DNA of 64,000 nucleotides, from NCBI GenBank assembly GCA_000497125.2, contig CM035321.1, forward strand, positions 1,268,001 through 1,332,000, given 5' to 3'. Below are positions 54,942 through 64,000 of the stretch, one piece after another. The stretch is from Spironucleus salmonicida. Its lineage: Eukaryota; Fornicata; Diplomonadida; Hexamitidae. A program made the translations under genes and the position numbers. The notes beneath the pieces were generated by a model, which was given only the letters and a program-made list of their open reading frames with translations, had not been told where the DNA came from and did not search any database. Every line of letters starts with the position of its first letter. Positions within the stretch are counted from its first letter, which is position 1.

Positions 54942-56378
54942 ATGATTATAAAACCACTCGGACCTAAGTTAATTTTTGATACAGAATTTTATGATTAGGA
55001 GGTTTATAACTCCTTATAAATTACCCAAAGTAGAGATTAAAATAATTATTTAACACCAAAATAGATTTCTACATTAAAGTTGCTTGAAGTTTTTCTAAAT
55101 CCCAACGAGATTAAATATATGAGGAAATAAAATATGGATTTTTGTAATGTAACAAAGCATGCTATTGCAAATTCATTGTCATCTGGTGTTGTATTTTGCA
55201 TAATTATAAGCAAGTTTTTATAAGATTTATAATTTATATTAAACCCAAAAACTGAGAAAGAACGAAAAATTAATTTTAACTGCGTTTCATCATTTTTGGA
55301 ATCATAGAATATATCCACATCAGAAGTATCCATTGAAAATTTTGATGTAATTATGGATTTAGCACAGTAATTGCTTTAAAAAGTTCAAAAAATCTAGGTT
55401 TAAACGGCGATAACTAGTCAAGTTTAAACTAAAGTGAATTAAACATTAATATGTAAAAACTAGTAGAAAGTTGATAAATTTACTCCAAACTGGGTGATTA
55501 AAAAGATAAATGATACGAACATTGAAAATAAATTAGAATTTATAAATTAAAATAATGATATTTTCCAAAAGGTAGAGTTTTTTAATACTAGGTATAATAG
55601 TTCAATGAATTTCTTAGAGAATACTGCTCAAAACGGGACTATATATGTGAAAATCTTATAATCATCTGGCTATAATATAAGTATTGAAAAACCATAAACT
55701 ATAGCTAATTGTAAAAATAATATTCAAGGAGTTTTAAATCTTTTAATTAAACTAGGAATTAAAAAAGTTCCAAACCTGGAATAAATACTGAAACATGATT
55801 TGTTTTCAGTTATTTTACTGTTATATATAGTAATAGGTATTTCAACAAATTTCGGCTTGATTTAGCCACCTTCTTACAAAAAGATTATTGACTTCATTAA
55901 ATGCCTAGAAATAGAAATCAATAATATAGACTAAATCATTCCTTTAATGTAAAATGGTGTAATTATAAGACAGTTCTTAAAACGGATGTTTATATTTCAA
56001 AATATAGATATACATTTACCTAAAAGCGATAGAATGCTTAGAACAAAAAGTTAATGTTTAAACTATCTTTAAAAATTAAAAGCAATAGCAGCAGATGGAA
56101 ATATTATTATACTATAAAATGTTGCTGATATTTGTGATAATAATTTAATTATTATTAAAAAAGAATTGGAACACTATATAGAAATTTATACATTAAATAA
56201 TGGTATAATTCTTGATTTTTAATCTATCAGTCCAAACTTTATAAAATATGGAGGAATATAACCCATATATTTGATAGATAACCTATATCTTAATTAATAA
56301 TTTCTTAATCTAGAAATATTATATCCTAATATATAATTATAAAAAATCACTTAAAATGACTAATAATTGTAATAGTGA
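54942..56378 (+). CDS. protein with three CH-like segments, 478 aa
   Basis: ATG 54942 (MIIKPLGPKLIFDTEF) to TGA 56376-56378. Three segments resemble calponin-homology (CH) domains. The first is residues 75-145 (LSSGVVFCIIISKFLQDLQ, KINFNCVSSFLESQNI). The second is about 205-285 (NGTIYVKILQSSGYNISIEK, CKNNIQGVLNLLIKLGI, HDLFSVILLLYIVIG). The third is about 295-390 (KIIDFIKCLEIEI, LMQNGVIIRQFLKRM). Fimbrin-type proteins bind filaments with tandem CH domains; diplomonads have divergent actin cytoskeletons. The assignment rests on pattern only. The last 23 bp overlap the next gene in another frame. Confidence 0.6.
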
Positions 56379-58455
56379 TTAGAATATTGATCAACCACTT
56401 GTTATCTCGGAATTAGAATAATCTCTTACGAATTATTCAGAAATTTCTTAAAAATTAAGAATAGGCTAAAGGTTAAGCTACTCATCATTAACGCTAGACA
56501 TATTAATTTTTATGTTTTTGGTCTCTAGTATAGTTGTAATAAATATTAATAACTTATTATCCTAAAAACAGTAGGTAGAATATTCTTAAACTAAAATTAT
56601 TCAATTCATCATTTTGATTGTCTTTAATCATGCTCATGGAGATTTTTTGTTTGTATACAGCTTTCTAGTCATATCGATATTTCCATCTATCCTGTAATTT
56701 AAAGATTAAACCATTGCTAATAACGTAATTGATATTATTTTTGCAGTATTAGTTTTCATATCTTTCCATTTGAAATATTACTCTAGAAAATATATTTTCA
56801 CAGAATTTGTTTAAATAGGATAAATACTATTTAGTATAACAATTAATTTCTTACTTACCGCTGGGATGATTATCTTATAGTCAATAATATAGGAATTAGA
56901 TGTCAACAATAATCAAGAAATTAAATATTTTACTATTTATGCTGGTTAGGAAATTCTTATTTTCATCCTAACGTGTGCATGTTTAGTATATCAGCACTAT
57001 TTTAATGAAATGTCTGTTAGCTTCAAAGCTGTAATAGTTATTCTTCTGTTATGTTTAATTTTTGGGCTGGTCATTGCAGGTATTTTAAATTTGGTTCTAA
57101 TAATTTATATATCTGGTTATAATTATGTCAAAAATCTAGATCCTGTTATTATTAGTACATGGACAGAATTCACATTCCCTTCATTCTCACCTGCATCGAG
57201 TAAATCATTAGCAGCATTAATCTCTACATTTATGTAGTTTTTCATGTTAGATTATATAAATTTTAATTTTTCAAGAGAATTTACATTCTAAAATATTAAA
57301 TTTTTCAAGACTTAAAAACTTATATTTTAAATTTTTTTTGCTGAAAAATATGAGATTATAATATCAAGTATTTTTATCCTAATAAGCTTTGCAACTGTTA
57401 GTGTAGCAGATTTTATTAACTTGTTTTTCTTATTCATTTCTGGTGCTTTATTTCACGACTCTGTGTTAAAAACAATCCTAAATTACTTATCATTTGCATT
57501 TGTTATACTTATCATTTTTCTTTATCTTTTTATTTGCTACAAATAGAAATTATAAAATGGTAAGTCTGTTAAATACGGCATCCTCTAATTTCTAGTAGGG
57601 ATATTTGCTATTCCAGGTGCATTCTCTATTGCATTAGTCAAAGTAATTTTCACTAACATTTTACCATGCTAACTGTAAAATACAGGTCAAGTAATTATCA
57701 CTCAGCTAATAACTCCTGTTACCGCGGCCCTCTCATTTATTGTTTCTTTTCCATACTTCTACTAATTGTATAACTAATACACTAATCTCGAATAGACATC
57801 ACAAAACTAGCGTAAAAACTTATTAATCGCTAGTAAGATAGTTTCTAGTGCAAATAATAGTCATTTTGATAATAAGTTACCATTTTCGACAGCTCAATTG
57901 AAGTAACTTTAAAAAGCTAAAGTTTATATAAGAGCAACAGATACGTAGCTACAAATAGCGTTTGCTGGTGCCAGAACATTCTAAATTTTTTCACTGAGTA
58001 AAATGATTATTTCTGGCTTTGATTGGATACGTTATAGTTTCTCACGTAATAGAATTTATACATTCAGTTAGTAACAAACTTTCATACCTAAGTATGCTGT
58101 AGATAGAGCAAAATTAGTTTAATAGATAGTATGTGAAACAAACTTCGGCGGATTGGAAATAGTAATTGCTGGTCATCATTTTGGGGCTATTTCGGCGTTA
58201 TACTTGGCTGAAAAACTAGGCGTTAGAGAAGTGTACACTTTTAACGCACCTATGCTAGTTAAATAGTCATTTTATGAACATGTAGGAGCTATGGGAATTG
58301 ATAGTAGCTAGAAATTAAAAATAAGTAGCATTTTAAATCAGTAAGGAAAGTGGGGTAATTGCTTCTATGTTAATGGTGGAGAGTGGCCTACTAGGGTATT
58401 TAGTGGTGCAGGTGTGTGCAGTGACATAATATGGGAAATTAAAAAGCTATAATGA
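56356..58455 (+). CDS. polytopic membrane protein with a degenerate lipase-3-like domain, 699 aa
   Basis: ATG 56356 (MTNNCNSDQNIDQPL) to TGA 58453-58455. About ten hydrophobic helices fill residues 45-480 (DILIFMFLVSSIVVIN; VIVILLLCLIFGLVIAGIL; AFVILIIFLYLFICY). The last 200 residues are soluble and look like an alpha/beta-hydrolase of the class-3 lipase type: IVIAGHHFGAISALYLAEKL with GHHFG at 606-610, then VREVYTFNAPML. In active enzymes this motif is GHSLG; here Ser is replaced by His608. The catalytic nucleophile is therefore missing, which suggests a non-enzymatic or altered role. The start overlaps the CH-like gene by 23 bp. Confidence 0.75.
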
Positions 58456-58466
58456 TAAATTTTCTC

Positions 58467-61400
58467 TCACTTCTTCTTAATTGGCGCAATCATAGTTCTT
58501 CTGAGCATACCTGCAGTACGGCAAATAGCAATAATGGCTCTAAGACCCCAATCATAATGGTCTTATTTTGACAGCAATTCCTTATTTAAATTGTATAGAG
58601 TGATAAACTTTTTAGCTAGCTCTCTAGCAGCCATGAAACCGTTAGAAATAAGCATAATTTCTGTAATTTAGCAGAAATCAGGTACCACCATAGCAACACC
58701 TCTAAATAGTGCTTTCAAGTTATCCGGTAATTCGGCACGACCGGCATAACCAGGATTCATAGTAATGAAATAACCAACTTATTTGTTTAACTTAGCCTTT
58801 GGCATACCAGGACGCTCTTCTTCATCTCCTAGTGTAAAATATTGTTTATCTGCGCGAATAGCATCTAAGACAGTTTTAACCTGCATAGCGACGACAGACA
58901 AAACCTCTACTTCAATTCTATTGAATTCATCGAAGCAACCCCATGAACCAGAAAGTGAAAGACCGTAAAATATATTACCAAGTGATCTATAGTCCATTTC
59001 TGGTGAGCAATTGAAAACATAAACCATACGACCTAAGGCTCTACCCAAATCTTTAGTTGTCTCAGTTTTACCTGTACCAGCAGGCCCAGCAGGAGCACCA
59101 CCAAGTATCAAATGTAGTGATTGTGTAAGAGTAATATAACATCTATCTGTAAGAGCTGTAACGACTAATCTGGCAGTGCAACCTAAATACTCGTAAGTAT
59201 ATAGGAATTCTGCGTCACAAATATTAACATAACAATCTTATTATTATTCATCCCAACGGAATTTCAACTAAGATTACCAAGCAAAAGCAGAAATTACCTC
59301 AACCTTGTCTCTGATTAATGCGGCAACTATATCCTTTGAATGCACTTCAATTGTACAAATAGTAGCAATTTTGGTACGCATATTTTTATCTAAATCACCC
59401 TAAGTCATAGTAATGAAATTAAGCAAGGCGTCGTTTTGCTTCTTATTGTACTCTTTAAGAGCCTGTTCATTGCCTTCTTCCAGACGCTCGAAAGCAGCTC
59501 CAGTATCAGATGTCCAAAAGTTTTGCAATGCAACCAAACAAATTTATGCTGGATAAACATCTAACCATTTTTCTCTATCCATATCTTAGAATTACTATAA
59601 AGAAGATAGAAGACTACTACGCAAAGTATCCATCATATATACAACTAATTTGTTGAGCCACGATTCTACGGGACCATCACATAGGCAATTAGCATGCAAT
59701 TAAACAATTTCATTTTCTCCTGAAACCATTGCAGTCGCTTCTTTACAAAGAGCATCATCAGTAGTCCATTTTAAGGCGTGCATATTATCAAATATTTTTG
59801 AAAGATGGCGTTCGACCTATTTAGGCTGTTAACCTTTAGACAGAATATCTAACAAGTCTACAGAAGAAACAAAATAGAATCTTGGGAATAAACGACGTTT
59901 AGTATCAAGATAGTCGGCAAGAGCCTTTTCGCATTTTTATAATTTTTCTTACATTTACTCAAGATTTTCTTACAGGCCAGCCTATTATGCTGATTCAATA
60001 CAATTTGAGATCCAAACAGCAGAATTCATTGCAACAATCCAAGATTCATTCATTTGTTCAAAGCGTTTAGAATCTTCAGGTAGCTACTCTCTGATATCCT
60101 ACGATCCAATGAATATAGGATAAAGATAGCTCCAAGTACGTTAGACTTCAGACCAAACCTAAATAACAGAATCGACTTGAGCTAATTTCTTTTGCCAGTC
60201 CATTACTTCGTCGTAGAAAAATTTAACATATTTATTAGAGACCATGTTCTAGACAGCAAGCTAATCTTATTCTAACTGGTCAGCTACTTCTTCAGGAACT
60301 TAAATATTATATAGAAGTTCTTTACCAGATTTTATTTATTCTGCGTCCTCTTCTAACATGGGCTAGGTCAAAATAATCAAATTAACATCTCCATGGTGGA
60401 TAAAATTGAAGTTGAGGTCTTTCCAAACTTAGTTTAATGCAGTAAGTTATTTTTCCATTGAAAGTTCTTTTTCTGCTTTAGATACGATTTCTTCAACAGC
60501 GTCTGAGTGTTCGTGCAGATTAAGCTTGATTAAATCAGATAATTAAAACTTGTCATCAATAGTAAATGAAACTTTAGTAAGTTCTTTTAATTATTCCCAA
60601 TGACGGCCACGCATAGCATGAGAGCGTAATTTCTGGATAAGTGGCAATGTTTTCAAGAAATTCTTAACTAAGTTATCTAATTTGACATAAGCATCGTTAC
60701 CACGAGACATACGGTCAACAGATCTGATTTCCTTTACAAACTTCTTCATATTCTCTTCCATATATTCTACATCAACATCCTTGAATAAAGTATTATTCCA
60801 TGAACCTAATTGAGACTCAACCATATCAGTAATATCCCAAATTAGCTTGAGAGAAACTAACTCTTTCTAAAGATTTGCAATAAGATTAATCTCTTCCATC
60901 TCTTTATCATTGGCAAATGAAGAATCAAATAGTTTTTGTTTTTCAGTTAAGAAAAGAGCTTGATCACGCAACTCTCCTAATTCGACTAAGCAAGTATCAA
61001 GCATTTCATAGGCTCTATCTATACCAACATCTCTAAGGAAAGGACCTTTCGATTTAAAGTGCTCTTTGAAATCCCAAACTTTGTTCTAGAAAACTTTAAC
61101 AGACTCAAATGTTTTTTATGTTTCCTCTTAAACTAATGGAGCTAGTTCTTCTCTCTTATTATAAGATATTTATTTAACTTTTTCCCATTCCTTTGGTAAG
61201 GATTCAACTAAAGAGGATACTTCAGGTGCAAATTAAATATTGTGTCTTTATAACATCTGCATCAATTCTTTAATAGGTTCAAACATCGTATCATACATAA
61301 GCGTGTTATCTTTTATATCTTTTTAAATGATTAAAGCATCTTCTAAAGATTATCCGGCTACGATTTCAGATTATAATTTAGCTTTAGCATTATTGCAGAA

Positions 61401-64000
61401 AGCAGATAAATTTTAAAGTCTACTGTTTGTTGAAGCTATTAAATGATTCGTGAAAAGATCTTTGAAAGAATCTACAAGTTATAATAATGAGGTCTTAGCA
61501 CTTCTAACATTAATCTATAGCCATCCAATTCTAACAGTAAGTGGCACATTCTATGATACTTCTTCTCTGATATTTCTATATTTTTCAATAGCATCATTAA
61601 AATCGTAAATATCAGGTATTCTATAATATTTAAGCTCCATTTCAATAGTTTAAACAGTAGGACCGTTGTCTGTTTTTTGGTTTTGTTCCCCTTCTTTACC
61701 TTCTTCTCCATTATCTTCCTATGTCTGACTATTTTACTTTACAATTGTTCTAACAATATGTTATGTTTTATCAGCCATTGCTTCAGTATCATATTCTCCA
61801 GAAAGAGGGACATTAGGACCATCCTTAAGGAATCTTTACAAATAAGCTTTCCTGTCTGTTTAATAAACAGGTTTATACTTTTCATAGTTTTATTCTTAAT
61901 CAGCAGCCATATGTGCGCGTTTAATAACTCTATTTTTAAGTTTATCTTTTGCGGCAATAAATTTAGGGTTTCTCATGATGTTGAAATGGAAATCTCTGAA
62001 ATCATTACTAGATTTCAACTTATCATCTGTACAGGATTAGGTTGGATTAGGAACACACTTAGCAACATTGCAGAAAGAATCAATCCATTGAGATAATGTT
62101 TACTCTAATGTTAATTTAGTGGCATTAGATTAAACTTATGGTTCAAAGAATAAGTCTGGATGGCGAATTAGCATATTGATTTCGATGAAAGGATATGAGC
62201 TTTCATTAATAATAGCCGACAGATTATCCAATTCATTATGCTCAATTGTTTCTGACTCATCCATATACTTTTGTAAATACTTAACATTAGTTACGACAAT
62301 GTCTAAAAGACCACATTAAATATATTCAGCTAACCATAATAAATATAGATCCCAGTACTAAACTAATTGCTCTGAATTAAAACCAATGAGTTCCATTACC
62401 TTAGTTTCTTCTTCTGAAGATGGCTTTTCTTCAGTTGGTGTGAAAAACACGGCCTGCTTAGAATTTTCTACTGCTTCTGTAATTTTTTGAGATTGAGTGT
62501 CTTTTATTTAATTAAGTTTAGTTTAAATTGTATCAGGGGTCTTATCTAAAGATACTGGAGCTTTTGCAGGTTTATCAACAAGAACTATCTTAGACCAGGC
62601 AACAAGGAGTTATTAAATAGAATTAATATTATCTTTCAGAGTAGAAACTTACATGAATAAAACGTTCAGTGGTAAGTTTAATTTATCTAAAAATATATTG
62701 ATATCAGCAGTTGAATCTTTCCATGTTAACTTATCAATACCATCAACTAACATTGACTCTATATATTAAAGTTGAGGATAGAAAAGTGGACGCTCAACAA
62801 ATACCAATTGTTTCTATACAAAATTATATTAATTTTATATAACATCGAGTTAAATCTTTGTCTAACGATAAGCATCAGCTTTAGCAAATACTTCTAAAGC
62901 ATCTTCACTTACTTCCATATCTAAAATCTTGAAAATCTTAGTTTCTTCCATAAGATCCGTAAGTTCAATAGAGAAATTAGTTTTAATTAATTTAATTAAA
63001 TCTAACTCGTCATTTCTAGTGATTCCTTCAGGAGTTATATAAACGTCATTCTAAAACTCAATTAAGTTAGGCTAGACTCTAATAATTAACTTTTCTGCAA
63101 GCTTTTCAGTACAAACCATGTCAATGCCAGATAACCATCGTTAATGTTGTTCAATTTCATACTCTTTGAGCTTTTACACGATTTCCAAGAACTTCTACCT
63201 ACTAATTTCAAATCTGTCATCTTTCACGATGCTTTCCGCACGTTCAAGATATGCAATATTCAAAGCATCAAGTTTTTTGTAAGGAACTCTAGTTTTATTC
63301 AGCAATACTCTAGACCACATAACTGCACCTGAAAGAGGTGGTTAATTCTTCTCAAGAGGAGGGTCATCTTTATTTGTTGTGAATTCATCGAATATCTTCT
63401 ATAACAAAGCTAAAAACATGTTATTAAAATGCCCAAATTTAGCTTAAACTACATTTTTAAGAACAGCCTCAGGTAATATACCTGAAAATGATTCAACAAC
63501 TGTGATTGCCTATTCTAATGTAATAGAAGAATCAATGCCAGTTTCTAAAACAGCAACTAATCTCTTCTCCCAAGAAGTATAATGTTTAATAAATTTTGCA
63601 TGATCTTCTTCGAACATATCAATTTGTAAATCGGTTGGATCATAAGTAGACTCTAAAAAGATTGCAGTTTTGGCGTTATATAAAGCAAAAATTTGTTAGA
63701 TTTACTTTGATAGTGAATCACCTTAAACACCGCCGACCTCCAACTTTTCTAATCTCTGCATACACGCATTAATAGTAATGACTCTGTGAATATCTTTGAT
63801 TCTTTCAACAAAAGCTTCGAAGCGTTTAAACACTAATGAAAGTGTTGGCCAGCACCCTTTGTTAAATTTATATCTTCTATAAGCATTAATTGAGACTTTC
63901 TCTTCTTCCTAAGGCTCTGCTTCTTCAACAGGAGCTTCTTTGGTTTCTTCTGGTTCTGCTTTTTCTTCAACAGCAGCTGCATCGGCAGCCTGATCAGCTT
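58467..64000 (-). CDS. dynein heavy chain, N-terminal part ending in AAA1 (5' end outside window)
   Basis: Axonemal-type dynein motor heavy chain. The visible 1844 codons cover an acidic Ala/Glu-rich segment at the edge, the DHC_N1 tail, the linker, and AAA1. AAA1 has P-loop [13 protein letters not shown] (59064-59087), [19 protein letters not shown] and Walker [18 protein letters not shown]. It reaches [17 protein letters not shown], the conserved end of AAA1, then diverges and stops at TGA 58467-58469 in AAGTGAG. AAA2-AAA6, the stalk and the C-terminal domain are absent, and the DNA beyond encodes an unrelated plus-strand gene. A GTATGC donor-like hexamer lies at 58505-58510, exactly where homology ends. 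Confidence 0.95.

Follow-up and report, generated by a model that had tools for sequence, protein, structure and literature searches.

The window analysed here, a stretch of 64,000 nucleotides (C6:1268001-1332000), contains a dynein heavy chain frame that breaks off inside AAA1, the first module of the motor. This raises the question of where the rest of the chain is encoded and whether the two parts are joined at the RNA level. The assembly comprises 14,471,397 bases in 37 contigs, and the G+C content of the window is 0.312; the published genome of Spironucleus salmonicida is 14.7 Mb in 42 scaffolds, with a G+C content of 33.5% and four introns (PMC9509377). TAA and TAG encode glutamine in the genome that the window comes from, and with this code no stop interrupts the minus-strand frame between 63998 and a TGA at 58467-58469. 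Earlier, a sequence-only reading had recognized this frame as a dynein heavy chain, and the profile matches agree: based on DHC_N1, DHC_N2, and AAA_6, positions 58467-64000 (minus strand) hold the N-terminal half of a split outer-arm dynein beta heavy chain (half A, P0121). The frame runs past the window to an ATG at C6:1333355-1333357, yielding a protein of 2296 aa that consists of the tail, the linker, the large subdomain of AAA1, and the start of the small one. In the translation, GPAGTGKT (59064-59087, minus strand) and CFDEFNR (58917-58937, minus strand) are the AAA1 Walker A motif and Walker B region. The strongly conserved GLRA (58536-58547, minus strand), invariant in an alignment of 17 rows, is located shortly before the fission point. 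As the same reading had noted, the dynein match ends inside AAA1 and AAA2-AAA6 are absent downstream; the AAA_6 match stops at position 229-230 of the 327 profile positions. The adjoining frame is on the plus strand (56275-58455); it has 726 codons, looks like a multi-transmembrane protein with, by eye, a lipase-like stretch near the C-terminus, and matched no family in a Pfam scan at E 0.001.

The sequence-only reading had the frame drift for 14 codons after a GGT, and proposed that the hexamer GTATGC is a diplomonad 5' splice site, from which this 5' half would be trans-spliced to a 3' half elsewhere. The hexamer is present (58505-58510, minus strand). However, the frame gives 13 codons from GGT to the stop, and there is no drift, as the alignments with DNAH9 and DNAH17 continue through G-M-L-R-R (residues 2059 and 2037, respectively). 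After the AG of a conserved RTAG, half A reads M-L-R-R-T-M-I, half B, a second N-terminal half in the same genome, M-L-R-R-E-M-I, Hexamita inflata (P0122) T-L-R-R-S-M-I, and Giardia muris (P0123) G-L-R-R-T-M-I. Hence, in the protein alignment, AG-x-LRR-x-MI and a short tail are retained in all four N-terminal halves. The methionine is replaced by threonine in H. inflata and by glycine in G. muris, and therefore GTATG cannot stand there in these species. At the DNA level, the 12 codons of A and B before the supposed donor comprise nine synonymous differences and three unchanged codons, and codons 0 to +8 comprise three synonymous and two non-synonymous differences and four unchanged codons; where A has GTATGC, B reads GCATGT. 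As the protein is conserved on both sides of the hexamer and the DNA of the paralog differs, we judge GTATGC to be coding (Gly-Met-Leu) rather than a donor. According to the alignment and the DNA comparison, the C-terminal end of half A (58467-58511, minus strand) is thus G-M-L-R-R-T-M-I, followed by a short basic tail, APIKKK. Its TGA sits in AGTGAG, as had been observed, and AGTGA has been described as a combined stop and poly(A) signal in S. salmonicida (PMC3916229). This context is weaker evidence for an ordinary gene end than it seemed, since AG directly precedes TGA in only two of the 13 other heavy chain ends and in 12 of 38 long frames, some of which are spurious.

To locate the remainder of the chain, we searched the genome itself with the AAA_6 profile and obtained at least 20 matches. 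Those of the window gene and of C6:192237-192944 end at profile position 230-232, while the one at C4:216072-216356 begins at 233. The C4 match belongs to half C (C4:216045-223553, 2502 aa), which completes AAA1 and contains AAA2-AAA6 and the stalk, and the match at C6:192237-192944 to half B (C6:186684-192947, 2087 aa). The protein coverage of AAA_6 is complementary, with positions 1-229 in both A and B and 233-327 in C. Similarly, A and B align with a solved DNAH17 chain as far as residue 2037, and C takes over at residue 2042, so that A or B together with C covers the motor sequence without any visible gap or duplication. All three halves have P-loop motifs that read intact. Therefore, the sequence-only reading was right in placing a 3' half elsewhere. 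Two separate loci, each with its own start and stop in the sequence, together cover one heavy chain; as A and B lie on C6 and C on C4, the chain is not encoded as the single polypeptide of a beta heavy chain.

The genome contains at least 16 DHC_N2 (linker) and at least 15 MT (stalk) loci, both counts being lower bounds. Fourteen loci of each kind form same-strand pairs with a spacing of 4162-5407 bp, and A, B, and C are what is left unpaired; the open frame was checked in three of these pairs, the other 11 resting on strand and spacing. No second orphan C-terminal half was found among the at least 11 Dynein_C loci or in the D6 and AAA_9 family searches of the same genome. Given two 5' halves, one 3' half, and the near-constant AAA1 part, a single C-terminal half is probably common to both tails, A and B, provided that the assembly has not collapsed or lost a second C-terminal half. 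Other partial AAA_6 matches, at C5:231-232 kb, C5:1329 kb, and C9:121-122 kb (L014, L015, and L016), were rejected as further cases, their frames being open through 10 kb and uncut. In addition, C6:112-124 kb and C6:145-157 kb hold two complete heavy chain gene copies with equal or near-equal match scores, probably a recent duplication.

Large repeats are prone to mis-joining, and the break could in principle be an assembly error, with AAA2-AAA6 truly continuing from A. However, A, B, and C break at a homologous point in three places on two contigs, and the proteins of Hexamita and G. muris have the same ends, and we give this explanation almost no weight. The pseudogene and the assembly break that had been listed as alternatives are both unlikely.

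Half C appears to have its own start. The protein begins with MSFNLEEI..EEEKVICRALRDSN (longer, MSFNLEEIVKEEEKVICRALRDSN), G. muris P0226 with MSGLNLEEI (longer, MSGLNLEEIFREEEKVLCRALRDSN), the Giardia-like P0227 with MSSFNLEEI (longer, MSSFNLEEIFRQEEKVLCRALRDSN), and H. inflata P0001 with MTNLTSAQLEEI (longer, MTNLTSAQLEEIKKEEERVICRALRDSN). The match is close in G. muris and P0227, and H. inflata is the loosest of the four C-half proteins. A start retained in relatives suggests that the start of C is real, as a non-coding leader would hardly be conserved in this way.

These observations bear on spliceosomal trans-splicing of A (and B) to C, which would proceed via GTATGC, a GTGA at the stop, or an unrecognized donor, as for HSP90 and dynein heavy chains of Giardia. 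Dynein beta and gamma are indeed trans-spliced in Giardia (PMC5224939), and GTATGCT in A and GCATGTT in B each match six of the seven positions of GTATGTT. We tested for splice signals using the published signals of the four S. salmonicida introns, so that introns with other signals would be missed. Six of seven was the best score to the extended 5' splice site GTATGT(T) in both A and B, and was reached by 93 and 137 of 300 flank shuffles, respectively, a chance-level score. Within 300 bp before C, candidate sites for the fused branch point/3' splice site scored at most 9/13 against ACTAACAAACTAG, attained by 170 of 500 shuffles, and 8/12 against ACTAACACACAG, attained by 188 of 500, that is, at the chance level. 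Thus, the search for an orphan frame with a branch-site and acceptor upstream recovered the frame and no such motif above chance. The duplex between the flank of A and the upstream region of C was marginal (z -1.42, 14 of 200 shuffles as good or better), and that for B had z +1.29. The Giardia cleavage motif TCCTTTACTCAA, sought up to 211 nt downstream, had a best score of 8/12 in A and in B, reached by 825 and 754 of 1000 shuffles, respectively. A and B both read AA-GTGA at the stop, in the same phase, and a GTGA donor overlapping the stop is possible in principle, although no acceptor for it was found. Across the genome, the acceptor motif occurs seven times exactly and 45 times with one mismatch (22 in the reversed control); none of these 52 sites is near C4:216045, the nearest on C4 being ∼91 and ∼140 kb from C. 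Moreover, two published RNA-seq screens of S. salmonicida did not detect trans-splicing (PMC5224939, PMC3916229). With the supposed site differing in B, the coding conservation extending beyond it, and the start of C kept in relatives, trans-splicing of these halves seems quite unlikely, and the data favour gene fission into two polypeptides.

Of the seven exact acceptor copies, five show the arrangement expected of genuine introns, with GTATGT or GTGAGT lying 39-62 nt upstream of the AG; a sixth has GTATGA, at 75 nt, and in the last copy neither is present. As these sites were chosen by the motif, they indicate that ACTAACAAACTAG is a marker of introns in this genome but do not imply that every intron carries it. 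The five intron-like sites (L030, L031, L032, L033, and L036) compare with four published introns, so one may be new. A strict whole-intron pattern yielded no sites; it is too strict, as it misses the intron-like ones.

To place the halves among dyneins, we built a tree of the AAA1 region with 24 rows. A is sister to B with moderate support (94/78), Hexamita joins them next (100/99) and G. muris after that (100/98), and the diplomonad N-terminal halves fall inside a clade with the animal beta chains DNAH9/11/17 (97/95). The best matches of A, B, and C among solved chains are DNAH9 and DNAH17. By these sequence comparisons, A, B, and C are of the outer-arm beta class. A plus C share with DNAH9/11/17 the tree position and the domain order; by contrast, chains of this class are normally one polypeptide of ∼4500 residues.

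The halves could also be expressed without rebuilding a motor, with A and B as motor-less tails and C as an isolated piece of the ring; alternatively, one of the halves could be decaying. We infer the association of the halves, and residues 1-50 of C are modelled with low confidence when C is taken alone, which leaves some room for this possibility. However, both sides of the break are conserved: identity in the last two alignment blocks, in AAA1, is 72-90% in five pairs, compared to 21-49% in the first 2000 columns. The tail of half B evolves fast, with 33-37% overall identity to the others and 72-90% in these two blocks. C is 61% identical to its H. inflata counterpart over 2489 aligned residues, the P-loops are intact in all three halves, and none of the ten other heavy chains in the tree (of 14 in the genome) falls in the beta clade. 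Hence, we consider non-functional halves very unlikely.

Very probably, then, the beta heavy chain consists of two separate proteins that reassemble, with C common to A and B and the fission dating to the diplomonad stem. The N-terminal half, with the tail, the linker, and AAA1 including Walker A, Walker B, and GLR, would end a few residues after LRR; from that point on, the C-terminal half, opened by a methionine of its own, would supply the remainder of AAA1, AAA2-AAA6, and the stalk. The halves may associate non-covalently during cytoplasmic dynein pre-assembly, rebuilding the AAA ring, and the ATP site of AAA1 would receive its arginine finger from the other polypeptide, the finger being, as we assume, ATVSRAG in AAA2 of C. 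The AlphaFold model of half A is poor (mean pLDDT 48), and residues 1-50 of C have values under 50, so that these models are too weak to back the assembly.

Among the matches listed, within a limited length range, 133 proteins have both a P-loop motif and GLRA, and P0121, P0122, and P0123 alone end within 32 residues after GLRA. Of the rest, 117 are joined by a simple pattern, six more are continuous with a different sequence at the junction, and the remaining seven have the matched GLRA at another place, which gives no reading of the junction. In Aduncisulcus (P0096, itself partial), a fornicate outside the diplomonads, the junction is unsplit, which places the fission on the diplomonad stem, assuming that the break in Giardia is homologous to that in Hexamita. 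The N-terminal half was probably duplicated after the fission, in the Spironucleus lineage.

The trans-spliced beta and gamma heavy chains of Giardia are a close comparison, as they come from another diplomonad, belong to the same gene family, and have loci far apart; P0226, annotated in G. muris as 'Outer-arm dynein beta, partial', is homologous to half C. Unlike the Giardia genes, the AAA1 break in S. salmonicida shows no splice signals that we could find. Both P0226 and P0227 terminate within the stalk, a region through which C is continuous. Beyond the conserved stalk, the last 32 residues of P0227 continue as GMLPVKRYLCVY, including KGMLPV, and this is the reading that an unspliced GGTATGTT donor would give, as read from the protein, not the DNA. 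A similar GML reading misled at the window junction. The S. salmonicida homologs of the split Giardia dyneins were called intact in 2014 (PMC3916229), possibly as their 3' half is intact and continuous in the stalk. The G. muris N-terminal half P0123 carries the name 'Dynein heavy chain' with no 'partial' added, which suggests that it has not been counted in the trans-spliced gene. We lean, with modest confidence, towards a broader reading of these comparisons: in all diplomonads the beta chain would be made of two polypeptides cut in AAA1, here as a modular dynein with one motor half and two tails, and the trans-spliced beta of Giardia would be the C-terminal half alone, never covalently joined to a tail.

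Split heavy chains are known from the cytoplasmic dynein of Basidiomycota (Ustilago dyn1/dyn2, Schizophyllum dhc1/dhc2, and Wallemia), where, as in A/C, one heavy chain is encoded by two genes, and the Wallemiomycete break, between AAA1 and AAA2, is close to that of A/C (PMC4540427). However, that split is cytoplasmic and arose in an independent lineage, while A/C is axonemal and known from its sequence; the portion of PMC4540427 available to us does not mention two N-terminal halves per C-terminal half. As of 2015, no other eukaryote phylum had been shown to have split heavy chain genes (PMC4540427). Among the papers listed in our searches of an open-access library, none was found to describe a split axonemal heavy chain or this diplomonad fission, nor did we see anything on it in the accessible parts of PMC2239267 and PMC12338079. 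If the reassembly reading holds, the principal ATPase site of an axonemal dynein would be built between two polypeptides, like that of ordinary oligomeric AAA+ proteins, in a flagellate group that includes Giardia. The break would be a shared derived character of diplomonads and a natural cut point for dynein reconstitution, with two tails for one motor half, and the trans-spliced dynein beta of Giardia may need a separate tail protein to be complete.

Finally, A and C share a sequence at their starts, a further point in favour of a translation start of its own in C. The 13 bases CTTTCCGCAAAAT directly precede the ATG of C and lie five bases before that of A. The 12-mer CTTTCCGCAAAA has 12 copies in the 14.5 Mb genome, compared to five for the reversed control (L038-L049, e.g., C7:1430283-1430294 and C6:1333364-1333375), and, looking at the motif copies alone, an ATG starts 11-18 nt after its first base in 10 of the 12. 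Half B is without the motif. We scanned nine proteins behind it, all except A, C, and a frame of five residues. These include Dynein_light (L049), RIIa (L040), a kinase (L043), and an annexin (L045), as well as a RIIa-like protein just below the cut-off (L047, 22.3 bits vs. 22.4) and an adaptin with its ATG 69 nt away (L046); no family was found in the scan of L038, L041, and L042. With several probable flagellar genes and two dynein halves downstream, CTTTCCGCAAAA is a possible flagellar start-site element.
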